Source: Linderina pennispora
Lineage: Eukaryota > Kickxellomycota > Kickxellomycetes > Kickxellales > Kickxellaceae
Assembly (NCBI RefSeq): GCF_002104995.1
Contig: NW_024468350.1
Span: forward strand, 1 to 35,082
Reading direction: 5' to 3'
Length of the DNA: 35,082 bases
The position numbers were made by a program, and so were the translations under genes. Shown here one piece after another: positions 1-30,004 of this stretch (positions are counted from its first letter, which is position 1; the number at the start of each line of letters is the position of its first letter). Under the pieces are notes generated by a model. That model was given only the letters and a program-made list of their open reading frames with translations. It was not told the DNA's origin and made no database searches.

Positions 1-1723
1 CTTCTGGGACTTGATCCTTTGTAGCCCAACGAATCCTGTCATAGTGGCGCAGCTTGAGCTCCTTATTGCGCTGCTGCCGTGTGTAGCGGTAGAGCATTCT
101 CTCACCCTCTTTCCCATTGCTGCTATTTTCGTGCATCATGTATAGCAAATCGCCCCGACCTGGATCGATGAATACACAGCGGCCTTTCAGATTCTGCAGC
201 TCTGGCTGTGGGATCTGGTGGATATAGCGACAGTCAGCTATAGTATTGCCTCCCACAGCACTACCTCCTGCAACATCGCCTGTAGCATCGCCTCCCACAG
301 CATCGCCTGTAGCATCGCCTCCTGTAGCATCGCCTGTAGCATTGCCTGTAGCATTGCCTCCTGCAGCATTGCCTCCTGCAGCACCAGCCTTAGGTACCTT
401 GTCTTGTAACAAAATGCATATCGTTACACCATCTGTTGTCGCCATTCCGTGGAATTTTCTATCACTATGCGCCTTAAATGGCTTTGATGTTAGATCTGCG
501 ACCCGGCCCCATACATCCCACACAGATTGTGCAATCCCTTGGACCGGGTCGTGTGCACAGACTGGGGGTGCTGGTGCATATGCATTGTTAAGTGCTGCAA
601 CAGTGTCTGCTGCTGCCGCCGATGCAGCAGCAAGCGAATCAGCCGCTACTGCTGCAGTTGCTGCAGTGGCCTCTGTTTCATCTGATGGCATCTTCGCTGC
701 TTCGCGTGCAGCCTTCTTGGCCAATTTTTCACCCTTTTCTGCTGCTTTCCTTGCCTCTGTTGCTGCCCTCTTTGCTGCGTTGATCTTGGTAACCTGCTCA
801 CGGGTTTTCGAAATAAACACCTGCTTGAATATTTGGTTGTCTAAGCGCACATGGCCTGGGATCCATGATGTCCGCAGAGGCAAGCATTGAGGGGGAGACT
901 TGCCAAGCTGCTCATTCTCGATAAGCTGGCATAGGCGAATGTATGCACGCAGATGCTGAAGTGGATTTACCTTGGCATCATAGTATCGGCTGTCTTTGGC
1001 GAATCTGTACTTGGCATCATAGGCATTAAGGACTGGTGCCAGCTTGTTGTAGATTGCAAGCATCGGTGGGGTGAGCACACTGAAATCAGGGTGCCTAGAG
1101 GCAACTGCCTGGCGGAGCTTCTGTGCAGGTGTATAAATACACACTTGGCATGCATTATTGAACTCAGCCTTGGACACATTGCCCATTGTACTGTGCAGGG
1201 TGTTTTTGCGGCTGCGAACATCAATCAATTTGGCCAGAATCCGCTGTAGGCAAGTGCCATAGTGCAACACAATGTTGTTCTTATATGCTGTCATCAGCTC
1301 GGTATCCACGTATGTCGCTACCTGATTCATTTCACGTACGCCATGTAGCTCGATATCGCCATTATTTAATAGATAATCATAAATATGATATCTAATTACA
1401 TCACCGAAATCTGCGCTCGACAGTTCTGACCTGTCCTTCCGGTTAACGAAATCCTTGGCAGACATGGCCATCTTCGCCTTCAGGTTGTGATAAATAAATA
1501 AATAAATGGAACGAAAAAACCCCTTTTTTACAAATGTTGCAGGGTCAAAAGCATCATCATAAGCTAGTTGATGGAGTAATATCCATCGTGCAAGCATGTA
1601 TGTATGCTCTTTGATGATATTGACGCTGTGTACAAATTGCTCTAGGCGGGGCAACATAGAATCACGGAAGCCAATACCACCAAGTGATGTCTTTATGACA
1701 GTAGTGCTGCGAGTAATATTCAT
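1..1723 (-). CDS. Fanzor-like (TnpB-related) RNA-guided endonuclease, N-terminal part, runs off left edge
   Basis: Reading the minus strand from the ATG at 1723 gives 574 codons without a stop up to the window edge, so the C-terminus is outside. Fanzors are eukaryotic relatives of TnpB that cut DNA guided by an RNA made from their own locus. Seen here: PLRTSWIPGHVRLD at residues 282-295, matching the conserved P-L-R-x-S-x-x-P segment before the nuclease core, and FIDPGRGDLLYMMHE at 518-532, matching RuvC-I with D520 as the expected metal ligand. It is followed by YRYTRQQRNKE, the usual basic helix after RuvC-I. Residues 313-380 are Ala/Lys-rich and about 446-491 are Gly/Asn/Ala/Thr repeats, placed between these motifs as a probable linker. 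RuvC-II, RuvC-III and the zinc ribbon should lie beyond position 1. The family call comes from remembered motifs, not a search. A domesticated or inactive copy cannot be excluded. Confidence 0.72.
   Translation of the reverse strand, partial: MNITRSTTVIKTSLGGIGFRDSMLPRLEQFVHSVNIIKEHTYMLARWILLHQLAYDDAFDPATFVKKGFFRSIYLFIYHNLKAKMAMSAKDFVNRKDRSELSSADFGDVIRYHIYDYLLNNGDIELHGVREMNQVATYVDTELMTAYKNNIVLHYGTCLQRILAKLIDVRSRKNTLHSTMGNVSKAEFNNACQVCIYTPAQKLRQAVASRHPDFSVLTPPMLAIYNKLAPVLNAYDAKYRFAKDSRYYDAKVNPLQHLRAYIRLCQLIENEQLGKSPPQCLPLRTSWIPGHVRLDNQIFKQVFISKTREQVTKINAAKRAATEARKAAEKGEKLAKKAAREAAKMPSDETEATAATAAVAADSLAAASAAAADTVAALNNAYAPAPPVCAHDPVQGIAQSVWDVWGRVADLTSKPFKAHSDRKFHGMATTDGVTICILLQDKVPKAGAAGGNAAGGNATGNATGDATGGDATGDAVGGDATGDVAGGSAVGGNTIADCRYIHQIPQPELQNLKGRCVFIDPGRGDLLYMMHENSSNGKEGERMLYRYTRQQRNKELKLRHYDRIRWATKDQVPE
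246..390 (-). repeat. In-frame minisatellite inside the Fanzor-like gene
   Basis: Imperfect 12-15 base units (plus-strand words such as gcatcgcctgtagc and gcatcgcctcctgt) repeat about ten times. On the minus strand they encode a Gly-Asn/Asp-Ala-Thr-Gly low-complexity stretch at about residues 446-491. Every unit keeps the frame. It lies just before the RuvC-I motif and probably forms a flexible linker. Confidence 0.8.
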
Positions 1724-2280
1724 TTGAGAAATTCAATAGGCAAGTAAGAAGAGAAATGATGCTGTTCAGTTTTGCTGTATTGCGTATGCATAGCATTAAG
1801 AACTTTTTATTAAAGATTTTCTGGCTTGCATGGTTCTTGGGGCCCTTAGCACTGATACAATCTCTTGGATAAGTCTATACAGACTGGGTCCGTTGTGACC
1901 CAAATACTACCGCTTACGCATGTTCATAAGACAAATTGATTTATAAAATAAACCCACAAATATTGCATAACCGCCAGAAGAGCTATATGGCTTTATTCAA
2001 TAGGTGCTCGTAAATAAATATCCTAAGAGTGTTGCGCAGCCAGTGATGACCACTATGATGATGCCATGGAAATTATCAGGCTGACTGACAATGAGAGCAG
2101 CTCTTGCGCTGAACCAATGGAGATATCCAGCGGAGACCTGTGACCACTACAACAACAACTTGTCACCCTGGTTTCACCGGTGAGGTCAGATGCCGCACAA
2201 AACCAAAGGGAGTTTACAGAGCAAGTCACTCAAACCCGTGTTGAAGCTTAAGAGTTTTTTTAACCAATTAAATAATTTCT
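1724..2280. other. Non-coding stretch upstream of the Fanzor-like gene
   Basis: No convincing gene is seen. It is AT-rich and must hold the promoter and 5' leader of the minus-strand gene starting at 1723. A short GGGTC/GACCC inverted repeat lies near 1886-1904. If the dispersed repeat at 2281-2352 is a transposon end, this stretch is internal element DNA. Confidence 0.5.
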
Positions 2281-2352
2281 AGCGGACGGTCGGACACTTT
2301 TTTGGACTATAAAATCTTATATATAAGTAAAGATAAAGATAAAGATAAAGAT
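2281..2352 (+). repeat. Dispersed repeat, copy 1 (inverted copy at 30920-30988)
   Basis: The 20-base core GGACTATAAAATCTTATATA is shared exactly with the reverse complement of 30920-30988. Similarity extends over about 70 bases, from AGC(G/A)(G/A)ACGG(T)..GGACACTTTT at one side to an AAAGAT-rich tract at the other. Copy 1 has a longer AAAGAT array (about four units) and two extra T residues. It sits 560 bases upstream of the Fanzor-like ATG. It could be a transposon end, a MITE remnant or part of a longer repeat. Confidence 0.75.
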
Positions 2353-3788
2353 GTAGGACTGAGATCTATTCACATCTTACACACGACTCTTGTGTAGCAT
2401 ATCATACAGCGTCTGTACACCACAATTTCTCTTGTCCCTTCACATGCACTGCTCCCCGGTCTTATGACACATCTCGCAGACGCGCATATTGTCGTTGTTC
2501 ATACTCGTAGCGATGTTTCTGAGCTTTGCCTGTTTTGACTATTGAGCTCCTTGGTCTGATGGGGCTGCCTCAGCTGGGGGTGCGCGAGACGTGTCGAGCC
2601 CAAGAACAAGGCTAGAATGTGCCGTCTGATTCGAACCTTGGCCGTTGCTCCCAACTGGTTCTTATATAGACGAACACCATCCTGCATATATTCAAATTTC
2701 TAAGGTGAATGTTGAAACACGGCTGTAAATCATGAGCTGTAAACGAGGCTTCTTTATGTAACATACAGATCCAGCCTACATTCACTGATCGCTCTGATTC
2801 GCACCACTCTGAACAATGATACATGAAATCCGAACAAAATACCCAGTGGTAAACTTTATTGAATCAAAGATGATAGACCAAAGTGCGCATGCGTGCATTA
2901 TGTTTCATATCATAGTAGCGTCACCAGTATAAGTTACATATGCGGCTAATGACTACACAGCTACCAGATGGTAGCACTAATATGTTGAAATGACTTCAAA
3001 ATAATTGTTGGTATAAATGTACAAAATGGGTTTCTTATTCATGCGGCCCCACCTTGTATTGCACTGGGCTGGACTTTTTGTACCCAAATCTAAGGCTAAA
3101 TACACCGAATCCTTTTTGCCCTCTGTTGGTTTGGCATAGGCGACCAACTGTCAAGTCTGCTTGTCCCATCCACTGCTTTACAAAACTAGCCGGTTTTAGT
3201 TAGTTTACAGCCATATGAACTAATGATGTTGGAATATCAGGTTCAAGCGTGATTTTTTAGCTGTTGCTCCACCTTCGGATATCCAGATACCAGGTTCGAC
3301 TTGGTCTACTGGGCTTAGCCACTCCTCATAATGTGTATGCTTTTTTAGAACACTTTCAGCAACTGTTGCCCAGTCGATGCTCTGTTCAGACCCGTATTGC
3401 CGCTTCACCTCGCTTGACACACTAGCCGCCAGTCAATCACCTGGCTGAAAGCTAAGCTCATGCTACACCCTATGGAGGGTTATATCTCCTGCCCTAGATC
3501 CGTAAGCATGGGTAGGAAGGGCTATATACAACAGGATGCTCTAGTTATGCGCAATAATGGCAGCTAAAGCCACCAGCGCGGAGGCGAATTGCCTAGGGTT
3601 AAATTTAGTTCTCTATGATTCTCTTAAGAATTGGGTCCAGAAACAACTAGGTTTGGATCAGAGCTGCAAGCCACAGCCGCTGATCCTTTCTAAAACCCAT
3701 CCTCGCCTTCACCGGCTTCGCTTCCCACCCTGTCCTGTGTCACCGTTGCTCCTCTTCATCCCTCGCTACCTCACAGTTTTTTTTTACA
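2353..3788. other. Gene-poor stretch between dispersed repeat and RNase H-like gene
   Basis: Only short, unconvincing open frames occur here, apart from the small minus-strand relic at 3220-3420. The last 60 bases are pyrimidine-rich, ending in a run of T just before the ATG at 3789, and look like a fungal promoter/leader. Confidence 0.5.
3220..3420 (-). pseudogene. Possible Myb/SANT-like gene fragment
   Basis: A 66-codon open frame with no ATG contains EVKRQYGSEQSIDWATVAES, which resembles the start of a SANT/Myb-type helix-turn-helix repeat (charged helix, then I-D-W-x-x-V-A). An in-frame TGA lies shortly upstream and the similarity fades after about 45 residues. It is most likely a degraded piece of a larger gene. 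It could equally be a chance open frame. Confidence 0.22.
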
Positions 3789-4619
3789 ATGGACGACAGG
3801 TATTACGCGGTGGCCGCTGGCTATACTGTTGGTGTTTATGAGGACTACGAATCAGCACGGTATCAAACTGATGGTTATTCTAACAACGACATGCGTGTCT
3901 TCTACTCGCTGGAGGACGCCGAAGACTATATTGACTTGGGCTCAAAGCGCTTCTTCAACCGGTACCGCCGGTATGTATCACGCGGGCGTGGACCCCCACA
4001 AATCCTCCACGTTTACACTGACGGCATCTGCAAGGGCAACGGGCAGCCGGGCGCAGTGGGCGGAGTAGGTGTATATTTCGGCTGCAACGACCCAAACAAC
4101 CTGTCCGAGGTACTGGTGGGTGGCCGACAGACAAACCTGCGTGCCGATTTGACAGGCGTTTTGCGGGCTCTGCAGATTGTGCATTCTGGGATCCGTCGGT
4201 ACGACACGAATATCGATTATCAGGTGGTGGTCTATACTAAGTCGAAATATGTTTTACACTGCTTGTTCGAAGGGTACGACAAATGGGTGCAGAACGGGTG
4301 GACAACGAGCCGTGGGTATGATGTGCAGAATCGTGATCTGATCCAGCAGCTTGTCCACGAATTTCGCAACTCCAAACTGCGTATATCTGTTGAGCATGAC
4401 TCAGTCGAGAGTGGAAACCTGTGCTCGGGAGCGGCAAACGATCTGGCAAATGAGGCAGTGGAGGAATACTATGAAGAGTACGAGTGGGATGACGATGACG
4501 ATGACGACGACTATGATGACTACTATGAGTCTGATGAATACTACGACTCCGAGGATGACGATTACCTAGCTTACTTGGAAGCTGCCAGACTACTCGAGAT
4601 GCTGCGTATAAATGACTAG
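3789..4619 (+). CDS. RNase H1-like protein with altered catalytic residues and acidic tail
   Basis: The 276-residue protein has the layout of eukaryotic RNase H1, which removes RNA from RNA-DNA hybrids. Residues 4-50 (YYAVAAGYTVGVYEDYESA) match the N-terminal hybrid-binding domain. About 71-225 match the RNase H fold. Of the four acidic active-site positions, the first is kept (YTDG, D78) and the last is kept (NDLA, D218). The second, normally Glu in RAEL, is Asp (D120 in RADL). The third, normally Asp in the TDSxYV motif, is Lys (K151 in TKSKYV). The enzyme is therefore probably weak or inactive and may act only as a hybrid binder. The C-terminus (224-262) is a run of Asp, Glu and Tyr. The ATG at 3789 is the first in frame and directly precedes the hybrid-binding domain. 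A tRNA-Arg gene follows 214 bases downstream. Confidence 0.82.
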   Translation: MDDRYYAVAAGYTVGVYEDYESARYQTDGYSNNDMRVFYSLEDAEDYIDLGSKRFFNRYRRYVSRGRGPPQILHVYTDGICKGNGQPGAVGGVGVYFGCNDPNNLSEVLVGGRQTNLRADLTGVLRALQIVHSGIRRYDTNIDYQVVVYTKSKYVLHCLFEGYDKWVQNGWTTSRGYDVQNRDLIQQLVHEFRNSKLRISVEHDSVESGNLCSGAANDLANEAVEEYYEEYEWDDDDDDDDYDDYYESDEYYDSEDDDYLAYLEAARLLEMLRIND

Positions 4620-4786
4620 GTCCTTAGCCATAAGAACGCAATGCCAATCAGTGACAAAAATTCCTCAATAACTTTTGCAGTGACTCAAACAGCTGAATAT
4701 CATGTTGAAGGTGTACATGGGATACAGTGGAAAGTATGAATAGGCAGGCATAGTATGCTTCGCCATGTACACCAAAACATCTAATT

Positions 4787-4796
4787 TATATACATT
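4787..4796 (+). promoter_or_regulatory. TATA-like element upstream of tRNA-Arg
   Basis: TATATACATT starts 46 bases before the tRNA-Arg gene. The same word, or its last eight bases, precedes tRNA-Asn and tRNA-Ser in this window. Upstream TATA boxes for RNA polymerase III are known in some fungi such as Schizosaccharomyces. The role here is inferred. Confidence 0.4.
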
Positions 4797-4832
4797 CGTA
4801 ATTTCAGGAAATCAGAATCTGAGTATGTCGGT

Positions 4833-4905
4833 GGCCGCGTGGCCCAATGGATAAGGCGCTTGACTACGGATCAAGCGATTCCAGGTTCGAGTCCTGGCGT
4901 GGTCG
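4833..4905 (+). tRNA. tRNA-Arg (anticodon ACG)
   Basis: A 73-base cloverleaf without intron. The acceptor stem is GGCCGCG/CGTGGTC (two G-U pairs), the anticodon stem CTTGA/TCAAG closes loop CTACGGA, and the T arm is CCAGG-TTCGAGT-CCTGG. The discriminator is G at 4905. The D-arm TGGCCCAATGGATAAGGC matches fungal tRNA-Arg(ACG). Confidence 0.95.
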
Positions 4906-5593
4906 ACATTTCTTTTTCGCTCAATTTTGTAACTGAATCTTTGTATCTTCAGCTTGGTTATGCTGATTTATGACCTACTGTTTTGCGCAGCTATTTGGTG
5001 GATTCTACTGCCTATATGAATAGCATGTAGACATATATACATTATTTTTGAATTGTTCTGCCATCTTTAATAATGGTTGCTTATAGGAATAAAATAGGGG
5101 TTTGATGAAGTAGTCGACACACAGAGAGTGTAGAGGAGTATGAAGAAATACGGGGGGCTGCTTGTTTTGACGAGTGCCGAGTGCACATATACGAGTTGAG
5201 TATTCTTTGGTTTGTACTAAATCTGCTCCGTTCCGTCGATGGTGAACAATTTAGATACACTAAAACCCTACCGAAAAATACTATCGAATCCAAGAGCTAC
5301 TGTCATATGACCTATAAATAATCGGAATCTGAGTCAGATCATTGTATGTTCAACAGTGATTGATGCCATCGCAGGACCCATATAAGAGTACAACAATAAG
5401 GACTAAACCTCAGCTTTCTGGGGCACCGGTCCTTACTCCTATTTTTATCGGCGCCTACCTCGATCTTGGTATGCGGAAATATCGCAAAAGGACAGCTTCG
5501 ACGATCTCTCACATCAGTGGGTGATTACCATGATGTGCTCACGGGTCTGCCGCTGGTCCATGGAATGCCTGACACGAGGTCACACCATTATGA
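4906..5593. other. Intergenic stretch between tRNA-Arg and tRNA-Asn
   Basis: No gene is seen. Positions 5033-5050 carry the 18-mer ATATATACATTATTTTTG, repeated exactly at 5593-5610 just before tRNA-Asn. No tRNA follows the first copy, so it may be a relic of a tRNA promoter or of an element that inserted near tRNA genes. Confidence 0.5.
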
Positions 5594-5603
5594 TATATAC
5601 ATT
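5594..5603 (+). promoter_or_regulatory. TATA-like element upstream of tRNA-Asn
   Basis: TATATACATT starts 51 bases before tRNA-Asn and is identical to the element before tRNA-Arg. A Pol III upstream role is inferred. Confidence 0.4.
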
Positions 5604-5644
5604 ATTTTTGGATGCCGGCAGAAAACAGTGTTGGTACTGTATCT

Positions 5645-5718
5645 GCTTTCGTGGCGCAACTGGTTAGCGCGTCTGACTGTTAATCAGGAGGTTGATAGTT
5701 CGAGCCTATCCGAGAGCG
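5645..5718 (+). tRNA. tRNA-Asn (anticodon GTT)
   Basis: A 74-base cloverleaf without intron. The acceptor stem is GCTTTCG/CGAGAGC, the anticodon stem TCTGA/TCAGG contains a weak pair and closes loop CTGTTAA, and the T arm is GATAG-TTCGAGC-CTATC. The discriminator is G at 5718. Confidence 0.95.
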
Positions 5719-5855
5719 GTGTCTTTTTGCCCCAGTTCACTTTTACTATTTGTCCATGTCTCCAGAGGCAATGGATGTGTCGTCTTACTTCTCCATATCA
5801 CCAATCAGATGGTTCGACGGTTATTATTATAGGCAATGGCTATCCAAGAAAGATT

Positions 5856-6482
5856 TTACTTGCTAAGGTACTTTGCCATCTTCGGGTCAGCACTGACAAC
5901 CTCAACAACCTTGTTGATCAGGGGTGCCTTTTCCGGAGTGAAAAAGTCCGACATGCCTGACAGGCACTGGTTTCCAAAGTCGTTAATCGAGCGCAAGGTT
6001 GCAACGAGAGCTACATCCATGTATGTGATTTCGTTGCCAAAATAGTGGCCGTTGGAGCCGTTGTTCTTGAGATGGTTCTCGTGGTATTTGATGAAGAACT
6101 GGACCTGGGTTTCAAACCGTTCCTTGATAGACGGGCGAGCCTCCTCAACAGTAAAGCGGTGTCTTGGGGCATAGTTGAAAATATCAACGAGCTGATGGCG
6201 TAGCTCATCTTGGCGGGCACTGTCTTGAGGGGTGCCGTTGACAAGCAAGCCGTGCTTGGCTGCCAGGTAGCGCTCAATTGCCAGAGACTCGCTAAGCTCA
6301 AAAACGTTTCCAGACTCATCAGTCTCGATCAGGACGGGGAGCTGGCCAACCGGCTGGTTGACTTTATCCTGGGGCCAGACAGGGGCCTCATCGCTGTGCT
6401 CGGAATCGTTGTAGCTCAGCAGGGCACGGCAAGTCTCGGCGCGAGCCTTGAGAGGGAAGTAACGAAGAACATAGGTAGACAT
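5856..6482 (-). CDS. Sigma-like glutathione S-transferase
   Basis: The 208-residue protein has the usual length of a cytosolic GST, which conjugates glutathione to electrophiles or peroxides. The N-terminal thioredoxin-like half opens YVLRYFPLKARAE, where Y8 fits the catalytic tyrosine of sigma-type enzymes. The glutathione site is seen as QLPVLIE (47-53, with the cis-proline) and ESLAIERYLA (65-74). The helical C-terminal half carries ITYMDVALVATL, which fits the conserved N-capping box and hydrophobic staple. No signal peptide is visible, so it is probably cytosolic. The gene is intact and intronless, with the ATG at 6482 placed directly before the first beta strand. It ends 137 bases from tRNA-Asn. 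Confidence 0.88.
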   Translation of the reverse strand: MSTYVLRYFPLKARAETCRALLSYNDSEHSDEAPVWPQDKVNQPVGQLPVLIETDESGNVFELSESLAIERYLAAKHGLLVNGTPQDSARQDELRHQLVDIFNYAPRHRFTVEEARPSIKERFETQVQFFIKYHENHLKNNGSNGHYFGNEITYMDVALVATLRSINDFGNQCLSGMSDFFTPEKAPLINKVVEVVSADPKMAKYLSK

Positions 6483-6981
6483 GGTTGCTTTGTGGGTGTT
6501 TGAGTGTGGGTTGTCAACGAAAAGTAGTATGGCAAGTAGTGAAAGTGAAGGTGCTAGATTGGTATGCGTTGCAATTTATATGTTTTTGGATGGCTGTCAC
6601 TAGGTGGCGTTGGTTGGCATTCTGCGGAGTTCGGACTACTTTTTGCACAATGCAGCTTGCAAGAGACAGTAATGTTTACAGCATGAAAATGTTTGTAAGC
6701 ACGGATAGTTTGTATCAAGAGGTTAGCTCTCAAAAATGATGTAAAGGAAAGGCCAAAGGGGCTCCTGCTGTCATGCTTACAAATTGGACAGCCATAAGAG
6801 AGGAGGCTGTAAAAAACCACTCTCCTCACATGCACAGTGTGAAAGAGTGCCAATCATACCCATAAATGCCACGTATGTCGAGCCTGTATTTGTCAGCCGT
6901 AATGCAGATCAAGGTGAAAAGTGGCAATCTCTCTGGTGGATATCCGTAAAAGGACGATTCGCTTAGAAACCACAAACCATA
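6483..6981. other. Intergenic stretch, promoter side of the GST gene
   Basis: It lies upstream of the minus-strand GST gene and downstream of the minus-strand OB-fold gene. No gene, RNA or repeat is recognised. Confidence 0.5.
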
Positions 6982-8922
6982 TCACACATGTATCCCCGAT
7001 ACCCCTACCCTATCTATCGGACATGCTGCTTCAATGCGCAACAAAGGGCCACTATCACCACCGCCGTCGATAAACGATGTCAGCGAAATGACAAACTCCA
7101 GTCCTAAGGGACTCTTCAGTTGTTGGTGCTGCTTGTGCTCGGCGGACAGTGACAGGAACTGCGATGGTGATATCCCCAGGATTGTTGCTGCAGCTTCCGG
7201 CGAGACATCTGCAGTACAACAGTCAGTCCCGTCATCGATTTCTGCTGTAAGCGCAAACTCCCACACAACATCAATGTCTGGGACCTCTTTGATTTTGCAG
7301 CGCCGGCAGCTAAACCCGTAGTCGCTCTTGAGTGATTCCAGCACAGTGCCGTCTAGACGCGCAGAGGGAACAACAGTTCGCCTGCACTTTCTGTGGGCAA
7401 ACCTTGTTATCCCTACTTGGTCCCGCGAGTCCTTGACAAAATCGCCAGCACTATGTATCCCAGTCACCGTTGCACGCACATAGCAATTGGCCTCACCTGC
7501 AATGTCAGCCAGGAACGAATATCCCCGCAGCTCAGAGCAGCTTAGCATTCCAGGCATCTGCGAGATATTGAATATCTGTGCATGGATTGCAAGGCTCCCA
7601 TTAATAATGACTCTGCTGTCGTTGAGTGGATTCGGGCTCTCGTCCTCGTGGGTCTCAAAGTTGTGCAGCACCACCAGTTGGCCAGGCATAGCTCGGGCAG
7701 CGGTTCTTCCAAGCTCACCCCAAACTGTGGCATCGCATACTCCTGTTCCATCGCCGATGCGCAGAACATAGCGGTCCAAAGTTGAGCCGTTCTCTACCTG
7801 GGTCGGATAATTTTCAGAGACTGCGACGACTCGCGCCATCATCGTCAGGTTGATGATCTCGGGCACAAGCTGGCCAATCGAGATCTGGTGTGCGTATCGC
7901 CGATAGTCAAAGAACCCAAGGTCATTGTACGCAACGCTTGTTTGTGATGTCTCGTTGTATGAGGCGCGTGTGCCGCGCATGATGAAGGCAATTGTCTGCG
8001 GTCCATAGACAAACTCCGTATCTGAGGCCTGCTCGGCGCAGAGCAAGCCAATGTAGTCATCATCATGGAAAAGCCGCACCAGCGGTATATCTGCATCGTA
8101 AAATCGGATGGATACCAGGTATGGTGCTTCTGCATGCTCGATCAGACAGCTGACGGTGGCATACGAGACTGGCCGGCCGTCTTCGAATTCCTCTTTGGTA
8201 CGCTCAATGCGCTCGATCTTCCCCCACACCTGGTTCGCATCGAATATTGGGTCGCGTGCATATACAAACCTTTCTCGGCTAAAGGCAACGCCAAATATGT
8301 CTCGCAAGAAGAGCTCGTCAGTAGGTGCGGTGTCCTGCAGTGCACTGTTGGATGCCCCGACTTTGACCTCAAATACGAGTGCACAGTCAGGCAAAAGTGT
8401 TAGCAATGGTCTGCCTGACCCGCACCCGCGATCTGCTGCCTTGAGGTTTGTTGCGTAGATGCACCGCTGGTCAAAAAACCCAGCAAACTCCTTGGAGCCA
8501 ATCATCGGGCAGTGTCGCTCGTGGACAAACATATCCATGTGCTTGTCTGCCGTGCGCAACCGCCGCTCACTGCCTGAGCTCGGTCCACCGCAGACGCTCC
8601 ATAGCCAGATATCTGTGCCTGGAAGCTTGTGTGTCTGCAAAACCTTCAGGTGGAAACGAGTTGATAGCGGTGGCGGAATGGAGCGTCCTAGGAATGGATC
8701 AACTGTCCGGAATATCTCACCATCCGCAGATTCCTTGGCTATTAGCGAGTGCCATGACGCTTCAAGCTCAGTTAACAGAACCGTCCGCGTCATATTTCCA
8801 TGTGCTGTCAACAGCGATGCTACTTTCGTTGCGATCCACGGCCACGGCACCTCGCCTGGCTGCTTCTGACAGCATGCTGCGAGATCCTCACGCAACGCAG
8901 CCAAAGTGCCTGAGAATTCCAT
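6982..8922 (-). CDS. Multi-OB-fold ssDNA-binding protein (Cdc24/RPA1/MEIOB-like)
   Basis: A 646-residue intact open frame. Residues ~358-430 (MARVVAVSENYP, then RYVLRIGDGTGVCDATVWGE, then PGQLVVLHNFE) form a typical nucleic-acid-binding OB fold of RPA type. A C-terminal part (~505-600) has HRKC, then SCRRC, followed by beta-rich EFALTAEIDDGT and a helix ILGISPSQFL. This resembles the zinc-containing third OB domain of RPA1 and relatives, with an incomplete cysteine set. The N-terminal ~350 residues probably hold further OB folds but are diverged. Candidate families are fission-yeast Cdc24 (replication, Okazaki fragment processing), MEIOB (meiotic recombination) or an RPA1 paralogue; I lean weakly to Cdc24. 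A role in replication or recombination in the nucleus is inferred. The ATG at 8922 is the first in frame. Confidence 0.6.
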   Translation of the reverse strand: MEFSGTLAALREDLAACCQKQPGEVPWPWIATKVASLLTAHGNMTRTVLLTELEASWHSLIAKESADGEIFRTVDPFLGRSIPPPLSTRFHLKVLQTHKLPGTDIWLWSVCGGPSSGSERRLRTADKHMDMFVHERHCPMIGSKEFAGFFDQRCIYATNLKAADRGCGSGRPLLTLLPDCALVFEVKVGASNSALQDTAPTDELFLRDIFGVAFSRERFVYARDPIFDANQVWGKIERIERTKEEFEDGRPVSYATVSCLIEHAEAPYLVSIRFYDADIPLVRLFHDDDYIGLLCAEQASDTEFVYGPQTIAFIMRGTRASYNETSQTSVAYNDLGFFDYRRYAHQISIGQLVPEIINLTMMARVVAVSENYPTQVENGSTLDRYVLRIGDGTGVCDATVWGELGRTAARAMPGQLVVLHNFETHEDESPNPLNDSRVIINGSLAIHAQIFNISQMPGMLSCSELRGYSFLADIAGEANCYVRATVTGIHSAGDFVKDSRDQVGITRFAHRKCRRTVVPSARLDGTVLESLKSDYGFSCRRCKIKEVPDIDVVWEFALTAEIDDGTDCCTADVSPEAAATILGISPSQFLSLSAEHKQHQQLKSPLGLEFVISLTSFIDGGGDSGPLLRIEAACPIDRVGVSGIHV

Positions 8923-9637
8923 TATTAAGCGTAAAGCGAGAGCAGCAGAAATAGAGACCCGAACTGCGCACTAATCGAGCTAATTTATTATAGAAACATG
9001 GACAGATAGTGTAAAATGGGTGGTTAGGCTGAGTTCCTTGGGAGCAGGAATGAAATCTGCTTCTCTGTCTGGTTTGACTGACAATGCAGCTGCCATGTCT
9101 ACTACAGACGCTGGCTGCTGCCTCATCCGTTTGCCTGTCTACTTTACTTTTCTGGATTAAACACACCATGCTGGCAAAATCTATTAGTATCAGCAGCGTG
9201 TCAACAGTGGCAGCTGTTGTTTTGATTTCTTGGCATGGCAGCATTCGCACTCTGAGACTAGCACACTGGCACAGAAAATTCTTTGGAGCTGTTTTAGATG
9301 TGGCGAGGTACCGGATAACGATTCCCTCCAATATGCATAGGCACAAATGGCATAGGTTGCGAAAAGCGGTATTGAAAACTGGTATGTTCTTGCTTTCGCT
9401 CAGTGGCATTATATCAATAGCACTATGGAACATGACAGCTGGCGTTAATTTTTGCATGTGTATATTTGTTGGTGTGTAATATCCATGAAGCGGGAGGTTC
9501 TGGGTTATATTAGCGGCAGAGTGCAAGAATGGAGTGTCAAGCGTACTGCTCCACTGTTCGATCTCCTTATGTATACATTATTTTCTACTAATTTCAGCAG
9601 TTGATTGGTTCAGAGCTTCGGCTCGATCCGGATAAGC
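8923..9637. other. Intergenic stretch upstream of OB-fold gene and of tRNA-Ser
   Basis: Open frames exist on both strands (plus 9084-9479, minus 8888-9526) but neither shows a recognisable domain, and they overlap each other. The tRNA-Ser upstream element lies near the right end. I call no gene here. Confidence 0.45.
9572..9579 (+). promoter_or_regulatory. TATA-like element upstream of tRNA-Ser
   Basis: TATACATT, followed by ATTTTCT, starts 66 bases before tRNA-Ser. It matches the last eight bases of the element before tRNA-Arg and tRNA-Asn. The spacing is longer than in those two, so support is weaker. Confidence 0.3.
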
Positions 9638-9719
9638 GTCAGTGTGTCCGAGTGGTTAAGGAGACAGACTCGAAATCTGTTGGGCTCTGCCCGCACAGGT
9701 TCAAATCCTGTCGCTGACG
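9638..9719 (+). tRNA. tRNA-Ser (anticodon CGA)
   Basis: An 82-base class II cloverleaf without intron. The acceptor stem is GTCAGTG/CGCTGAC, the anticodon stem ACAGA/TCTGT closes loop CTCGAAA, a long variable arm contains GGGCTCTGCCC, and the T arm is ACAGG-TTCAAAT-CCTGT. The discriminator is G at 9719. Confidence 0.95.
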
Positions 9720-10020
9720 ATTCTTTTGCCCATTCCTTTTGCCGCCCCACCCCGGCCTCGGCAATCCTCACTCCCCGAGCGCTGACCAAGTCACGCGCTG
9801 CACATGTTTTTGCTGCTGCTTTTGGCGGACCGCCGGCGATTCCTAAGCCGACCAGGTCACGCTTCCCACCACCACACCGCAAGCCACTGTCCCCAGCCCC
9901 CCCCGACGCCTTATGTAAAAGCTGCTGCTTGTGCTGCCAGCTGCGTATTTATTGCGCTCCAACCCACCTGGAACGAAGCGCCTGCCTCATCTCGTTCTCC
10001 ACTCCAACCATGCTCCAACC

Positions 10021-11958
10021 ATGCTCCAACCACTCGTATCTACCATTTACTTTGCTGCTCTGTCCTGTGCGCTTATCTCCCAGCCACAGCAGCGACAGCT
10101 CTCCACACCAGCCAAGCCGTTCAGCCCTGCTCTCAGCCACAGACAGCCATTCACTGTCTACGAGACTCCTCTGTCTCTGAACCCCATTGCAAGCCCTACC
10201 ACCTTTTCCTCGTCGCTTGCCCACAGCGACCCCTTGCTGCTGCAGAGCATGTCGATTGCTGCCACTTATCTGCACCAGAAGCATGGCATCCAACTGGACA
10301 GCATCCACATCACCGATGCATACACCGACACTGCTACAGGGCTAACACATGTCTACATGGTCCAGACCCACGGTGGCCTGCATGTCACCAATGCCGTAGC
10401 AAACGTCAACATTGACAAGAATGGACGTGTCATTTCGTCTGGCCATTCATTTACTCCTGAGCCTCTGGCTAGCAACAATGCCGACTTTTCATCAGCTGCT
10501 CTCTCAACAGACTCTGCCAGAGCGGCCCTTCTTGCTTTGGCCAACCACATCCAAGCACCACTTGCCGACACTGACCTTGGTGGCATGGCAGCAACCAGCT
10601 TTGACTCACCGTCTGGGCTCACTGTCACGAACTTGCCTGCACACTTTGCCATCGATGGAACTGCCCGTATTACCTCTGCTCTCTTGCAGAATGCTGACGG
10701 CTCAGTATCCAGCGTCTGGCGTGTCAATGCCGAGCAGCAGGACCACTGGTGGACTGCAAGCATCGACACTTCTTCGCACAATGTGCTCGCCCTCTACGAC
10801 TGGTACTCGCAGTCTGAATCATACAATGTCTATGCCAAGGATGTGCTGTCTCCTGAAGATGGCAAGCACACACTGGTTGCTGACCCGGCAAGCAAGGATG
10901 CCAGTCCAAAGGGCTGGGTCACCAAGGGCTCGACCTACGGCAACAATGTCTGGGCACAGTCCAACCCAACCGGTGGCTCGACGTGGCAGACAAACCACCG
11001 CCCGAAAGCTGGCCCCGGCAATGTGTTCGATTTTCCCCTCAACTTGTCGCAGCCACCAGAGTCGTACATTGACGCAGCTATTGTGCAGCTGTTCTATACC
11101 AACAACATCATGCACGATCTGTCCTACATCTACGGCTTTGATGAGGCTGCAGGCAACTTCCAGGATGAGAACTTTAGCGGCAGAGGGGTTGGCGGGGATG
11201 GCATCATTGCCAATGCCCAGGACGGCTCTGGCACCAACAATGCCAACTTTGCCACGCCTCCTGATGGCCAGCGTCCGCGCATGCGTATGTATACATGGAC
11301 CCAGACTATGCCAAACCGCGACGGCGACTTTGAGCAGGACATTGTGGCACACGAGTTCACCCATGGAATCTCGAACCGGCTGACAGGCGGGCCCGCCAAT
11401 ACCGACTGCCTGAATGATGGCGAGTCGGGTGGCATGGGCGAGGGGTGGAGCGATGCAGTGTCGACTATCCTGCGCCTCAAGAGCACTGATACACATGACA
11501 CTGACCTTGTGCTGGGCCACTATGTGTACACCAAGGGGATTCGCAACTATCCGTACTCGACCAGCATGGACACCAACCCATCAACATACAGCTACCTCGA
11601 CCGCATGGACTACCAGGAAGTGCATGCCATCGGCGAGGTGTGGGCTGAAATTCTGTATGAAGTGATGTGGGCGCTGATTGACAAGAATGGCTTTGCCGAT
11701 GACATCTTTGCCCACGACCTGACCAAGGGCAACTCCATCATGCTCCAGATCCTGCTTGACGGGATGAAGCTGCAGCCGTGCAACCCAACGTTTATCGATG
11801 CACGCAATGCCATAATCCAGGCCGAGCAGAATCTGACTGGTGGCAAGAACAGGTGCGAGATCTGGGGTGCATTTGCCAAGCGCGGACTTGGTGTCAATGC
11901 ACCGGGTGGTGGATGGGGCAGGCATACCGATGACAGCAGTGTTCCTGATGGGTGCTAG
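10021..11958 (+). CDS. Fungalysin-type secreted metalloprotease (peptidase M36)
   Basis: M36 fungalysins are secreted zinc endoproteases made with a long propeptide. I place the start at 10021 (645 residues) because the protein then opens with a signal peptide, MLQPLVSTIYFAALSCALIS; the frame is open to 9931, but the extra 30 residues would bury it. A propeptide with FTP-like features (around SMSIAATYLHQKHGI) precedes the catalytic domain. The zinc site is HEFTH (H444, E445, H448) with the third ligand in GEGWSD (E474). Flanking NRDGDFEQDIVAHE and GPANTDCLNDGESGGMGEG are family hallmarks. The C-terminus is intact, ending in DGC. The product probably digests extracellular protein for nutrition. 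The gene is intronless and lies 301 bases after tRNA-Ser. Confidence 0.95.
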   Translation: MLQPLVSTIYFAALSCALISQPQQRQLSTPAKPFSPALSHRQPFTVYETPLSLNPIASPTTFSSSLAHSDPLLLQSMSIAATYLHQKHGIQLDSIHITDAYTDTATGLTHVYMVQTHGGLHVTNAVANVNIDKNGRVISSGHSFTPEPLASNNADFSSAALSTDSARAALLALANHIQAPLADTDLGGMAATSFDSPSGLTVTNLPAHFAIDGTARITSALLQNADGSVSSVWRVNAEQQDHWWTASIDTSSHNVLALYDWYSQSESYNVYAKDVLSPEDGKHTLVADPASKDASPKGWVTKGSTYGNNVWAQSNPTGGSTWQTNHRPKAGPGNVFDFPLNLSQPPESYIDAAIVQLFYTNNIMHDLSYIYGFDEAAGNFQDENFSGRGVGGDGIIANAQDGSGTNNANFATPPDGQRPRMRMYTWTQTMPNRDGDFEQDIVAHEFTHGISNRLTGGPANTDCLNDGESGGMGEGWSDAVSTILRLKSTDTHDTDLVLGHYVYTKGIRNYPYSTSMDTNPSTYSYLDRMDYQEVHAIGEVWAEILYEVMWALIDKNGFADDIFAHDLTKGNSIMLQILLDGMKLQPCNPTFIDARNAIIQAEQNLTGGKNRCEIWGAFAKRGLGVNAPGGGWGRHTDDSSVPDGC

Positions 11959-12728
11959 CGGTGAACATGTGCATATGTAAATGTCCCCTCCATTCCGCCT
12001 CCATCAGTTTTTCAACGCCCATTTATAACCATCGCTTTCCAACCTTGCAACTACTTTGTTAACCACACCGTCCATTTCTTAAATGCATCGTTATGTGCCA
12101 TGTGCACAAGCAGTAGAAGGAAGGCTTTGCTTAGAAGTAAGGTGTTTGGCGGCAATGGCTTTCAATCAATTTCGACATTTCGTTGTGGTATTGTCCAGAT
12201 ATTGGGATCTGTGTGTTTTATTATCCAGAAAAATGGCTCTACTAGGCCCTGCTCATCAGGTATAAATATCACAGCGGCTTGTTGCTAAATGACAGAGCCA
12301 TCATCAAACACCCAGTGCGGTTCCCTATTCCCCATTCCCCATTCCCTATGTTTTTCACTTGAAAACACTTGCAGCAAAGGCAGATATTCGACTGGTCTTG
12401 TCTGCTTACCTGTGCATAGATTCAGTATCCAGTAGACGAATGGCTTGCCAAAATATCTTATCGGACAAGCGACAGCGAGCTAATGCATATGAATATGTAC
12501 AGCCAGTGCCCGAAGCGGCAAGAGGCAACCAATACGATTGCTGGCTCTTGATCCTCTGAGGGACATGGCGTGGGGTTGCCCGAATGACAACAATATGCAT
12601 GCACAACCGACTGAGCAAAAAGCAAAGGTGGCATGGACGAACACCACCGGTTGGCGCAAACCAGGGTGCCGAGCACTAGGACGATCCAAAAGAGTATGGC
12701 GATCTGGCGAGCAAAAATAGATCCGTAG
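11959..12728. other. Intergenic stretch after the fungalysin gene
   Basis: No gene is recognised. It holds the 3' end of the fungalysin transcript and a short TTCCCCA tandem repeat at 12319-12350. The small open frames here show no domain. Confidence 0.5.
12319..12350 (+). repeat. Short tandem repeat (ATTCCCC units)
   Basis: Four imperfect copies of a 7-base unit (CTATTCC, CCATTCC, CCATTCC, CTATG). Probably a simple sequence without function. Confidence 0.6.
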
Positions 12729-12801
12729 TGGGGCTTCCGTGGATCGAACACGGTGCCTTATGAACTTCAGTCATACGCTCTCCCAGATGAGCTAAAGCCC
12801 C
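12729..12801 (-). tRNA. tRNA-Phe (anticodon GAA)
   Basis: A 73-base cloverleaf on the minus strand, without intron. The acceptor stem is GGGGCTT/AAGCCCC, the D arm is TAGCTCATCTGGGAGAGC, the anticodon stem TATGA/TCATA closes loop CTGAAGT, and the T arm is CCGTG-TTCGATC-CACGG. The discriminator is A at 12729. It lacks the TATATACATT word found before the other three tRNA genes, although an A/T-rich TTTTATTTTTT tract lies about 50 bases upstream. Confidence 0.95.
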
Positions 12802-13898
12802 AGAACCATCGGAGATCAAACCAGATTAGATCCCAGATTCTGAGAACCTCAAAAAATAAAACATATTTAACTCTATACGACATTGGTCACCTTAGAGTTC
12901 GTTGCTTTCTCCGCTGACCTTCGCTATCGTTGCTCTTAGATGATATCTCCAAATGAAAGGTTAGACGTCCCAATTACGGATAGCATCTCATTGCACGGTT
13001 TGTGAGTCTACGATGGAGCATCCATGACTTGAAATCACTTGGTGTACTGCTTTTATTATCTGAATCTGCTTCGGCGAATGTGTGGATGCACTCTAGTATA
13101 GCTGTACTCCAACATCATTAGTTTGTGGCCAGATTTATACTCAGATACATGCCGACCATTTTGTAGGATAGCTTCCCCACAGCAACATCATGAAACCTGT
13201 GTAGAGCGTGGGATCATTTATCTCAGATCCTGGTCGAGTGACTGCTTTTCTGATCGCTGTCGACAGTATCGCCGTATATTAAGCCACGCATCCTGATAAG
13301 CAGTTGCTTTCCCAGAAGCAGCCGAGCGATGTTAATACACACCTACCACAGGTATTTCAAACAAGCATATCTAAGCTAACGCTGCCCAGCAGACGCGGCA
13401 TTTGGTGTGGCCACGGGAACGCACATGCACGGCGCCTCCCCCATCTGGTGAAGCAAGCGCACAGCACAAGCGGCGTACGAGCGAATTCCAACTGCGGCCT
13501 AGCCTTTTCCTCAGAGCATTGACGTCAGCTGGACATCACACTGCTATCTTTTTTTTTTTGGGGAGGAAGGGAAGAAAAGAGCCTGGCTGGCCAATGGGGA
13601 CCGGTGACCTCTGGTGCCCCAACAGCTTTGGGGAAAATTTTTTATTTTTTTGCTCAGTTGGATACCAGTAAAAAATTTTTATTTGCCTCAAGAGAGCACC
13701 AAAAAATCAAGAGCGTAGCAGCGAGAAGGGCGAGCAGATTGAAGCTTTTCTTCTCTTTTCAGCAGTACTCGACACCTATTTTCCTCATACTTTTTCAGGA
13801 CTCTATTAGAGGGAGGAACAAAGCCGAAAAGCAAACATATAGAATACACCGGGCATATACCGTTTACGCTAGTACTTTCTTTCATAACATAAACGACC
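12802..13898. other. Intergenic stretch before the ABC-F gene
   Basis: No gene is recognised. T-runs at about 13550 and 13638-13680 and a C/T-rich leader precede the ATG at 13899, consistent with a strong housekeeping promoter. Open frames here carry no known domain. Confidence 0.5.
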
Positions 13899-15758
13899 AT
13901 GGCAGTTTCCGCATCCAAGCAGAAGCGTCTCGCAGCGAAGGCGGCCAAGGCAGCGGCCAAGTCTGGCAATGCTGGTAATGCCGGCAATGCCGGTGAGGCC
14001 TCCGGAGCCAGCACGCCCGGCACCGCCACACCCGGAACGGCGACGCCGACGGGCACTGAGGGTGGCAAGGGTCTGGCCAAGACGATGAGCCAGCTGAAGC
14101 TGGTGGTTGATCGGTCCGCGACCGGAGTTCTGACATCGGCGCCGCTGTCGCGCGACATCCAGATTGACTCATACACGCTGTCGTTCCACGGACGCATGCT
14201 GATTGAGAATGCGTCGGTGGAGCTCAACTTTGGCAACCGGTACGGTCTGCTTGGCGACAACGGCAGTGGTAAGACGACATTCCTGCGGTCAATTGCCGAG
14301 GGTGACATTGAGCTGCCGCCGCACATGGACACGTATCTGCTGAGCGAAGAGGCGGAGCCCACGGAGCTCTCGTCGCTCGAGTATGTTGTCAAGACGGCGC
14401 AGGACGAGCTGATCCGTCTCGAGCACGAGCTGGAGGATCTGCTAGCGTCTGAGGAGGGCGCGGACAACCCTCTGATTGACGATATCTACGAGCGTATTGA
14501 TCAGCTGGATGCAAGCACGTTTGAGCCGCGCGCGGCCGAGCTGCTGCATGGACTGGGATTCGATAAGGAGCGCATGAGGATGCCGACCAAGAGTCTGTCT
14601 GGAGGCTGGCGTATGCGTGTGGCGCTGGCCAAATGCCTGTTCAAGAAGCCGACGGTGCTGCTGATGGACGACCCGACGAACCATCTTGATCTGCAGTCGG
14701 TGGTGTACCTTGAGGAGTACATGAAGACGTACAACCGGATTCTGCTGATTGTGTCGCACTCGCAGGACTTCCTCAACAACGTGTGCACGCACATCATCCA
14801 CCTGACGCCGAAGCGGCGGTTGGTGTACTATGGTGGTAACTACGACACGTTCGTGCGGACCAAGGCCGAAAACGAGGTCAACCAGATGAAGGCGTACGAG
14901 AAGCAGCAGGCGGAGATTGAGCACATCAAAAAGTTCATTGCGTCGGCGGGTACGTACGCGAACCTTGTGCGGCAGGCCAAGTCGAAGCAGAAGATCATTG
15001 ACAAGATGGAGGCGGCGGGTCTGATTGAGAAGGTGGAGGCTGACCGCAAGTACGTGTTCCGGTTCCCGGACACGCCCAAGCTGCCGCCTCCTGTGCTGAG
15101 CTTCGACGACGTGACGTTCTCGTACGACGGCAACCCCGACAATGCGCTGTACTGGGAGGTTGACGCGGCAGTGGACATGGACTCGCGGATTGCGCTGATC
15201 GGCCCGAACGGAACCGGCAAGAGTACGCTGCTGAAGCTGATGACGGGCGAGCTGGACGCGACCGAGGGCCGTGTGCAGCGGCACACGCAGCTGAAGCTGG
15301 CCAAGTACAGCCAGCACTCGAACGACCAGCTGGACCAGGACAAGTCGCCGATCGATTATCTGCGCGACAAGTTCCCGAAGATCTCGCAGGACATAGACTT
15401 CTGGCGGCAGAACCTGGGGCGGTTCGGTCTGTCGGGTAGCCACCAGACCAGCCCGATCAGCACGCTGTCGGATGGGCTGAAGAGCCGGCTGGTGTTTGCC
15501 GAGATTGCGCAGCAGGCGCCGGGCATTATTCTGTTTGACGAGCCGACCAACGGTCTGGCGCCCGAGGCCATTGATGGGCTGGCGGATGCGATCAACCACT
15601 TCAGCGGCGGCGTTGTGCTGGTGTCGCACGACTTCCGGCTCATCAGCCAGGTGGCCAAGGAGCTGTGGCTGTGCGAGAACAAGCAGATTACCAAGTTTGA
15701 GGGCTCGATCGAGAAGTACAAGGAGTCGCTGCGCAAGGGCATCACCATCAAGCAGTAA
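13899..15758 (+). CDS. ARB1: ABC-F ATPase, Arb1/ABCF2 type (ribosome biogenesis)
   Basis: Arb1 is a cytoplasmic/nuclear twin-ATPase needed for 40S and 60S ribosome maturation. The 619-residue length matches yeast Arb1 and human ABCF2. After a Lys/Ala N-terminus, the first ATPase domain has Walker A GDNGSGKT (119-126), signature LSGGW (233-237), Walker B LLMDDPTNHLD and H287. The second has Walker A GPNGTGKST (435-443), a signature changed to LSDG (523-526), Walker B ILFDEPTNGLA and H577. No transmembrane segments are present, as in all ABC-F proteins. Two positions are unusual: the catalytic glutamate of the first site is Asp (D258), and the D-loop aspartate of the second is Ala (A554). The gene is intact and GC-rich with strong codon bias, which suggests high expression. 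The ATG at 13899 follows a pyrimidine-rich leader. Confidence 0.95.
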   Translation: MAVSASKQKRLAAKAAKAAAKSGNAGNAGNAGEASGASTPGTATPGTATPTGTEGGKGLAKTMSQLKLVVDRSATGVLTSAPLSRDIQIDSYTLSFHGRMLIENASVELNFGNRYGLLGDNGSGKTTFLRSIAEGDIELPPHMDTYLLSEEAEPTELSSLEYVVKTAQDELIRLEHELEDLLASEEGADNPLIDDIYERIDQLDASTFEPRAAELLHGLGFDKERMRMPTKSLSGGWRMRVALAKCLFKKPTVLLMDDPTNHLDLQSVVYLEEYMKTYNRILLIVSHSQDFLNNVCTHIIHLTPKRRLVYYGGNYDTFVRTKAENEVNQMKAYEKQQAEIEHIKKFIASAGTYANLVRQAKSKQKIIDKMEAAGLIEKVEADRKYVFRFPDTPKLPPPVLSFDDVTFSYDGNPDNALYWEVDAAVDMDSRIALIGPNGTGKSTLLKLMTGELDATEGRVQRHTQLKLAKYSQHSNDQLDQDKSPIDYLRDKFPKISQDIDFWRQNLGRFGLSGSHQTSPISTLSDGLKSRLVFAEIAQQAPGIILFDEPTNGLAPEAIDGLADAINHFSGGVVLVSHDFRLISQVAKELWLCENKQITKFEGSIEKYKESLRKGITIKQ

Positions 15759-17073
15759 AGCAGATATTGAGGAGATCCGAGCAAGCTTGCGGGGGGTCCA
15801 CCAATTCGGAAACGGATCTCTGGGTCCGCCCAACACCCTGTTGTCGTCTCCAAAGGATCTCGGTTTTGGTTAAAATAAAATCGGCGAATTCTAATTCATG
15901 CAATAAGGTGCGAGCACGCAAAATAGAGCGCGAGCGGTGGTGGGGGAAAAGACGGGAGGGGCGGGCAATAGTGCGGTTCCAAGTATCAGCAGACGAGGAT
16001 AGTGTCGTTTTTGGAATTGCACAGTGGTTGCCAGCTGCACAAAACTCAAAATCTTGAAATCTGTCCCGTTCTGCCCCTTGGTCATCAGCGGCTCACTATC
16101 CAGGTCATCAGGCATCGCAGGCTGTAAATCCCCGAGGGGAAAGCAGCATCCTTTGTGGCACTATACGTGCGGAGCACGCAAGGGCATCAGAACTGGCTAT
16201 TTGGCAGGCGCTGCTGGTATAGTACTTTGGCTTATTATCGCGCTGGTAGTTTTTCTGGGCATCAGCAGAAACTACGGGGGGCCAAGCTTGCGGGACGTAT
16301 TTTTAGTAGCGACTGCATATTTGCGGGGTATTGTCGGCGAGCATCATCAGCAGAACCGCTTGCAGCCTGGCTATTGTCCTGGGAACAACCGATACTTGCT
16401 ATCTTTTTTGCGCAGTGTCTCCGCTCGGATGGAGGCAATTAACAAACGAAAGCGGCAAAAATAAATATAGATGCATTTCTTGTCTGCGCTATGATGGGCC
16501 GTCGGTTGGTGAGAAGAACCAGCTGGTGTATGTTTACAGACGTCCAGAAATACAATGTGCATGTGTCCTGAAACAGACACAAAACAGGACACACTGGGAG
16601 GAAAAAGCGTATTCACGATTGTGATACAGGTGTTCGCAGAGGAAATGACATGCGCGTCTGGCAGTCGAATAGTGCGAGTGCATAAGAGCAAAAGCCGATG
16701 GAGAAAGGACTGGTCTTTTTGGCCTGGGTGTTTACATGGGTTGCCTTGCACTGCTCTCGCCAATCACTCGCCATGAGCCCCAACAAAGCAAGAGTGAGGA
16801 AAAAAGTGTCCCTAATTTTTTCCCTCTACTACTGCCCGAGCCTGGTTGGTTCGACCCAAAAACAGGACCCTTGGTGCTTTTATTCGCCCTTCAGACTATT
16901 TAAAACACCGCCTGGCTGGCCATCCTCGTGGGCGCAAGCGCCCAGAGAAAAAAAAACCACACCCTCCTTCAACCTTCTTCATTTCCTCATCCCCGTTTCC
17001 ACACAAAGCAAAAAGCACATTTCTATATCCACAGCATCGCATTTATCTTTTCTCGTAATCTCTTTCTCAAATA
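15759..17073. other. Intergenic stretch between ABC-F and C2/PH genes
   Basis: It holds the 3' end of the ABC-F gene and the promoter of the next gene, with a TATA-like CTATTTAAAAC near 16897. An open frame at 16024-16464 encodes one hydrophobic stretch (LAGAAGIVLWLIIALVVFLG) but has no ATG before its last codons, so I do not call it a gene. Confidence 0.5.
16807..16820 (+). promoter_or_regulatory. Shared promoter word TGTCCCTAATTTTT, copy 1
   Basis: This 14-mer starts 267 bases before the ATG at 17074. The identical word starts 266 bases before the ATG at 26753. Both promoters also have a T-A-rich TATA-like stretch closer to the gene. A shared transcription-factor site is possible; chance is not excluded. 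Confidence 0.3.
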
Positions 17074-19454: not shown

Positions 19455-19522
19455 ACATGTATTACTCTTTCTTCTTATCCCACTTGTTTTAGCGCATTAA
19501 AGTAATTTTTTTCTCCCAAGTC

Positions 19523-23791: not shown

Positions 23792-24263
23792 TCCTGCCCT
23801 CGCAAGAAAAACAAAAGGGTTGAAGCGTCTCCTCGCGGAACTGTGTAGGGGGGCCTAGATATGCGTATGTTTAAATAACGGAAGTCGCGCTTTATTTAGT
23901 TTTGTCCAAGGCAATTGGTGCCTACCTGTATGCGAATAAAAACGTGTTCCCAGTGTGGTTTGCCTGTGCTTGTTAAATGCGCTGAATTTTCCCCTTTGTG
24001 TGCGTGCACTATGCAATGTTGCGTGCAGAATGTGCGTATGGAGGGAGGCTGAACAGAGTGGACGCCAGAGACAGGTAAACAAGTACAAGCGTGTCTATAC
24101 GCCGCGCCCCGCCTGCGCGTTAAACAAAATAATAAACCCTTTGCAATAGCACCTCCAACCATATGGGCTCCTCACGGATTAGCTGATCTTGCAATCACAG
24201 GACCAGTATCCCTAGCCCAGCTTTGCCAAGTTCCCTTCATGTTCGCGAAAAAAAATATGACAT
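23792..24263. other. Intergenic stretch, promoter side of the BRPF-like gene
   Basis: It separates the ATG of the BRPF-like gene from the 3' end of the transporter gene, both on the minus strand. No gene is recognised. Confidence 0.5.

Positions 24264-29971: not shown

Positions 29972-30004
<33 letters not shown>

Follow-up and report, generated by a model that had tools for sequence, protein, structure and literature searches.

Why eukaryotic transposons carry Fanzor nucleases is an open question, and the genome of Linderina pennispora, in which a truncated gene of this kind lies at a contig end, bears on it. The window, meaning the whole stretch of 35,082 nucleotides that was analysed, makes up the whole of contig C5 (assembly of 26.17 Mb in 222 contigs); the gene is therefore cut by the contig end, and its C-terminal third was read from other copies. 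The first-pass annotation had described a single minus-strand frame of 574 codons cut at the window edge and encoding the N-terminal two-thirds of a Fanzor-like nuclease. Translation bore this out, revealing an ATG start and no stop before the contig edge (2..1723, minus strand; codons 1-574 of about 860, as judged from full-length genomic relatives). All three annotated motifs were present in the frame: PLRTSWIP, YTRQQR and the RuvC-I motif FIDPGRGDL (146..172, minus strand), which contains the catalytic Asp520 codon (164-166, minus strand) and aligned with RuvC-I of PpFz1 and SpuFz1. A phmmer search of PDB with the window protein returned P. parasitica Fanzor1 (PpFz1, E 7.7e-36), S. punctatus Fanzor (SpuFz1, E 2e-8) and G. 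theta Fanzor1 (GtFz1, E 2.9e-4), and a Pfam search assigned no family to either the window protein or the full-length Fanzor protein. These PDB matches and the high-identity recurrence of the frame across the genome (at least 97 matches, with 76 of 398 candidates scored) rule out a chance ORF, and the identity of the frame as the 5' part of a Fanzor1 gene is as good as certain. Comparison of its copies indicates that Fanzor1 is very probably carried by a Helitron, with a RepHel protein as the mover.

Among the ten other copies that matched best (L002-L011), all but the broken L009 have intact ORFs of 857-876 aa. With the 860-aa copy L002 as query, the PDB matches strengthened to E 2.1e-84 for PpFz1, 1.3e-34 for SpuFz1 and 1e-5 for GtFz1, confirming the expected similarity to Fanzor proteins. 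PpFz1 (PDB 9cf0-9cf3) was the best PDB match along the protein and has a similar layout of RuvC-I, -II and -III and zinc ribbon, but the two proteins aligned in four blocks only (7-304, 402-441, 497-629 and 656-819 of 860 aa), separated here by Ala/Lys and Gly-rich repeat linkers. One of these, a Gly/Ala/Asp repeat at residues 443-496 (236..397, minus strand), varies in length between copies. The RuvC-II Glu, RuvC-III Asp and zinc ribbon that had been proposed as a check are all present in full-length copies, which have the RuvC-I Asp in DPG (D520), a relocated RuvC-II Glu in DEFRTSS (E725), which precedes the first zinc-ribbon Cys by six residues, and a ribbon of the form CxxC...C(x4)C; the string CPFC...C(x4)C...NRDLAAVLN, in which the RuvC-III RD follows the ribbon, occurs in L002-L008, L010 and L011. 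DPG together with a Glu six residues before the ribbon is given as a Fanzor signature in PMC10711439. That the window copy is active is, judged from its sequence, a fair but open possibility. Its likely allele, L014 on contig C157, is 99.3% identical over 2330 bp, and its match to the Fanzor protein stays in one frame only as far as aa 444.

The gene lies in a sharply bounded element of ~3.34 kb that is common to the copies and in which Fanzor was the sole gene found. Two 3'-end searches placed this element in at least 61 places (40 + 21, allelic pairs included; 40 candidates scored in each, of 249 and 246). In the window, the upstream part of the element, a 5' untranslated region, spans 1724..2351 (minus strand) as defined by the boundary common to copies, and ends in a 5'-TC terminus at 2351-2350 (minus strand), the start of a run of ATCTTT repeats, with a flanking A at 2352. 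Among 23 loci whose 5' ends were parsed, 16 read A|TC, three had another base and four could not be parsed. The 3' end consists of a hairpin, GCTCGC-ATC-GCGAGC (6-bp stem, ATC loop), a spacer of 8-9 nt and CTAG; 71 distinct 3' junctions (62 after merging near-alike flanks, mostly alleles) closed with CTAG in 65 cases, CTGG in three, CCAG in two and CTTG in one, and the sequence continued with TA in 70 and TT in one. Searches with both flanks of 15 loci recovered empty alleles for four of them, and all four fit insertion at A|TA without target duplication, two of them cleanly, with nothing gained or lost. The other two, L084 and L085, have 8 and 11 extra nucleotides where the element would insert, which may be scars of excision or repair.

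The 5'-TC, the subterminal hairpin and the 3'-CTRR are all features of the Helitron1 type. Helitron2 elements are described as having hairpins and asymmetric terminal inverted repeats at both ends, the 5' repeat within 2 nt of the end and the 3' repeat upstream of the hairpin (PMC3627910). In copy L004, the outer 30 nt contained no terminal inverted repeats (longest inverted match, 4 nt) and the 5' end only 6-nt palindromes; an 8-nt asymmetric inverted match begins 50 nt from the 5' end (4 of 500 shuffles had one as long), which is not the Helitron2 placement. A Tc1/mariner or other TIR transposon is ruled out by the lack of TIRs and of TA duplication, and LINE-like 5' truncation by both ends being common to many copies. 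An autonomous Helitron would encode an intact RepHel, and this element contains Fanzor only. Together, these data make a strong case that the Fanzor element is a non-autonomous, Helitron1-like Helitron with the gene as its cargo, that is, a unit without a transposase of its own. Its 5' ends vary in the number of ATCTTT repeats and include partial duplications of the terminal module (window 2334-2352; L079, L080, L081 and L083), as if slippage in the final stage of replication lengthened the 5' end.

The remainder of the window (2353..35082) is host flank. Two tested stretches of it match contig C157, one over 2641 bp at 96% and the other, coding DNA, over 1801 bp at 100%, and both contigs have the same flank, GTGAATAGATCTCAGTCCTAC, beside the insertion point; C5 therefore most likely represents the other haplotype of C157 upward of position 20010. 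Other small contigs, including C106, C206, C221 and C136, likewise look like second haplotypes of large contigs, with a noncoding divergence of about 4% as measured for C5, and such pairs are useful for comparing filled with empty alleles. Rfam identified four tRNA genes in the flank, at 4832-4907, 5644-5719, 9637-9720 (+) and 12728-12801 (-), for Arg, Asn, Ser and Phe. The window also encodes an ABCF/Arb1 protein, which shows 96% identity to an incomplete protein of Linderina macrospora (402 aa, covering 66% of the query) and 88% to its counterpart in Martensiomyces pterosporus; both species are Kickxellaceae of the order Kickxellales, which points to a host in this order, probably Linderina.

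The insertion site offers one possible function for the cargo. The published TAM of PpFz1, ATN (PMC11423790), fits the A|T(A) site at which this Helitron inserts, so insertion would split an ATN-type TAM. In a homing mechanism, the final ~75-120 nt of the Helitron could supply a guide-RNA scaffold and the first ~15 nt after CTAG-TA the guide; Fanzor might then cut uninserted copies of the site (TAM ATA), repair might copy the element in, and the donor would be spared because its ATA is split. If this is true, surviving empty alleles should mostly be TAM or seed variants. We searched the flanks of 57 copies for empty alleles (15 + 26 + 16 of 19) and kept 12 that lay outside obvious repeats; four rows in repeats were removed ahead of the count (L023, L073/L112 and, twice, L116), L005/L089, which matched in part and has AAA in place of ATA in its allele, was also left uncounted, and L012/L088 proved filled. 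Nine other copies (5 + 4) were filled on both haplotypes, and six allelic matches with an adjoining Fanzor match (L053, L054, L120, L125, L127 and L128) stand outside both counts. The 5' flank of empty alleles was compared for L013, L030, L016 and L029, and by eye for L070 (L133); that of the L002 empty allele gave no match.

Within the first 12 nt after the A, 11 of the 12 empty alleles were changed. Changes affected 20 of 144 sites (13.9%) in this interval, 9 of 120 at positions 13-22 and 33 of 480 (6.9%) at positions 23-62 (Fisher P 0.016, permutation P 0.013, n = 12), values that are flattering because the window limits were set with the rows already in view. The excess of changes in the predicted target is thus a weak, post hoc signal, and the same excess could arise from repair scars, target preference or a TA carried by the element itself. 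The empty allele of L119/L134 is a clear counter-example: ATA is kept and the target is perfect, which means that Fanzor cutting is either not efficient at every site or not happening now. The stronger idea that all empty alleles are TAM or seed mutants was dropped once this allele proved intact. With ATN as the TAM, intact targets would also include the empty alleles of L002 and L070.

The near-constant TA after CTAG could itself belong to the element and be written over the target, in which case it would be no part of a TAM. The constancy of TA across junctions speaks for this, as do empty alleles that read TC (L070 and L065) or TT (L002) at the corresponding position; against it, TA was already at the site in most of the 12 empty alleles, and L123 reads TT after CTAG where its empty allele has TA. 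We regard an element-borne TA as possible, if on the improbable side, and RNA-guided homing by Fanzor as plausible but unproven from these alleles.

The 3' end, to which the homing mechanism would assign the scaffold, is conserved in sequence. Across nine copies, divergence in the last 120 nt was 4.4, 2.0, 0.0 and 4.1% in successive 30-nt windows, compared with 10-12% in the coding tail just upstream. The 5' untranslated region (eight copies) diverged by 3.7-8.1% in columns 151-600 and by 1.5% in columns 601-650, and columns 51-150, near the element 5' end, were also conserved (1.7-1.9%). Conservation that extends outside the hairpin fits a guide-RNA scaffold. Against this reading, predicted folds of four 3'-end RNAs were in no case clearly better than those of shuffled sequences (z -1.30, -1.12, -1.04 and -0.47), and Rfam had no match in the 3' noncoding end; its one match on L002 was far below the gathering score and in the coding region. 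SpuFz1 is reported to use a conserved scaffold of 75 nt, which lies between the stop codon and the 3' repeat, and a guide of 14-15 nt from the flank (PMC10432273).

We then considered the transposase. The RepHel domain Helitron_like_N gave 13 exon matches in the genome, in about seven loci (best E 2.8e-49). The 5' end of the RepHel Helitron on contig C112 matched that of the Fanzor element at 94% over 101 bp (L001 2255-2355), defining a common 5'-terminal module of ~80 bp (2255..2333, minus strand, in the window) that is 84.7-100% identical between this RepHel and the other Fanzor copies matched; RepHel 3' ends have the same design as those of the Fanzor element. A 155-bp RepHel 3'-end query found eight genome matches, all of which were scored. 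The family 5' module abuts CTAG at all eight, and the 5' region of a Fanzor element follows at seven, with the Fanzor gene itself seen behind some of these junctions only. The junction reads exactly CTAG|TCTTTACC in five of the eight and has altered first bases in three. At the eighth end, on C2, another short Helitron-like stretch follows; C23 matches 1504 bp of this region at 97.5%, has a Fanzor element in between and, on the strength of that common stretch, is probably the other haplotype. As C2/C23 and L081/L082 (common flank) are likely haplotype pairs, the eight ends represent about six independent RepHel loci. The best-read example spans ~8.9 kb of C157, between 20009 and about 11080, and at this one insertion point the window haplotype has Fanzor alone and C157 has RepHel plus Fanzor. 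The family also occurs in tandem form: a RepHel Helitron leads, a Fanzor Helitron is joined to it head-to-tail, and the two have a 5' module in common. RepHel, an HUH nuclease joined to a helicase, would move both units.

That RepHel and Fanzor lie in tandem is observed; whether they move as one unit is a question we grade as open to likely. An alternative is that Helitrons of this family merely insert in tandem at each other's ends, with no co-moving unit. It would account for the variable junctions and for the family 5' module that also follows a Fanzor 3' end at L024 and L052. It likewise suits the identities, RepHel 3' parts being 94.5-99.7% identical and the adjoining Fanzor 5' parts (seven loci) 83.3-98.7%, a gap that suggests joining on several occasions, or exchange via the 80-bp module, and that does not fit a unit simply moved whole. 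Chance tandem insertion, however, sits poorly with the asymmetry of occupation, a family element following eight of eight RepHel 3' ends and only 2 of 47 Fanzor 3' ends. In addition, RepHel 5' flanks differ between loci, so that tandems exist at several sites, the Fanzor element missing on C2 is present on C23, and recombination in the common module could swap cargo. On balance we think it unlikely that adjacency reflects tandem insertion only.

No intact RepHel of the family was seen among the loci read, and present mobility is therefore unproven. The RepHel copies look decayed: stops occurred in three of the seven larger N-domain matches, and 13-362 codons past a marker motif in four of the five copies read, and a Copia RVT_2 stretch adjoins the fifth. 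Some of these stops could be intronic. PIF1 matches in the RepHel units were weak (0.001-0.0017, below the cut-off, at locus ends). The C112 copy is shortened and contains ~500 bp (L031 885-1384) that are 94% identical to their own reverse complement. Alone among the RepHel loci examined, a divergent Helitron, L037 (G000:C68:198243), has an open frame of 1989 aa with no lesion seen, and it could drive the family in trans.

If RepHel is the mover, Fanzor might be passive cargo, amplified as RepHel accepts the element ends, with the protein adding nothing to spread. Retention of both Helitron ends means that RepHel alone could move the element, and several of the 30 first loci have internal deletions. 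One class of copies (L091-L096; three copies of other classes were also checked) lacks one base of a C-run at codon ~280 in six of six examined and multiplied regardless; either the frame is truly broken and this subfamily was moved in trans, or the loss is a homopolymer reading error. Set against this is the constraint on the protein. Pooled pN/pS over 36 pairs of nine intact copies was 0.32, the restriction to intact ORFs favouring low values; by block it was 0.03 for residues 401-442, 0.13 for 656-800, 0.23 for 1-310 and 0.32-0.55 for other coding blocks, while the near-neutral repeat linker (1.08) served as an internal control. Intact Fanzor ORFs are apparently under purifying selection. 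Also difficult for this reading is that none of the eight RepHel 3' ends stands alone, while 45 of 47 Fanzor 3' ends have no family element after them. A nuclease that contributes nothing to the spread of its Helitron therefore seems doubtful to us.

Bacterial IS200/IS605 elements combine an HUH transposase, TnpA, with TnpB, and have hairpin ends without inverted repeats. Here, too, an HUH-type transposition enzyme adjoins a TnpB-family nuclease, and RepHel thereby stands to Fanzor as TnpA does to TnpB; the likeness is one of layout, and RepHel is a Rep-helicase of eukaryotic Helitrons. A parallel with IS200/IS605 has also been drawn in PMC10432273. We tentatively suggest that the tandem Helitron, with its putative 3'-end guide scaffold, could be a eukaryotic counterpart of such elements, in which Fanzor would cut empty alleles toward fixation and lost copies would be restored. 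In this one genome the element is present in many copies, and in at least nine the ORF is intact and apparently under selection. A partner transposase family is identified and the ends are exact, filled and empty alleles can be compared between two haplotypes, and a guide, a scaffold and a TAM can be predicted for each copy, which makes the idea of Fanzor homing directly testable.

Fanzor1 in non-autonomous Helitron2 elements of Chlamydomonas was already known (PMC3627910), and a Helitron association of Fanzor is mentioned in PMC10432273 and PMC10711439. Like the family described here, Chlamydomonas CRe-1, CRe-2 and CRe-3 carry Fanzor1 as cargo, have ends in common with a Helitron of the same genome, and occur in many copies with internal deletions (PMC3627910). 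Unlike these Helitron2 elements, which are often 5'-truncated and make variable target duplications (Bao and Jurka 2013, PMC3627910), the elements here have Helitron1-like ends, no duplication at four of four empty sites with both flanks, and a position directly after seven of the eight RepHel 3' ends found. SPu-1 of Spizellomyces punctatus, which encodes SpuFz1, is another fungal Fanzor1 element in many copies, with a noncoding segment conserved from stop codon to 3' end and related loci without the gene; it has inverted repeats with no transposase found between them, according to PMC10432273, in contrast to the Helitron described here. No report that we recognised as a tandem RepHel-Fanzor element came from the open-access papers searched. 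Relatives of the protein, sought among 7999 candidates scored per search, which the Ala-rich linker had perhaps filled, comprised one distant protein, P0002 of Coemansia sp. RSA 2673; the open-access papers searched included none on Fanzor together with Coemansia. In the Coemansia protein DMG replaces DPG and NRN replaces NRD, and it may therefore be catalytically dead.
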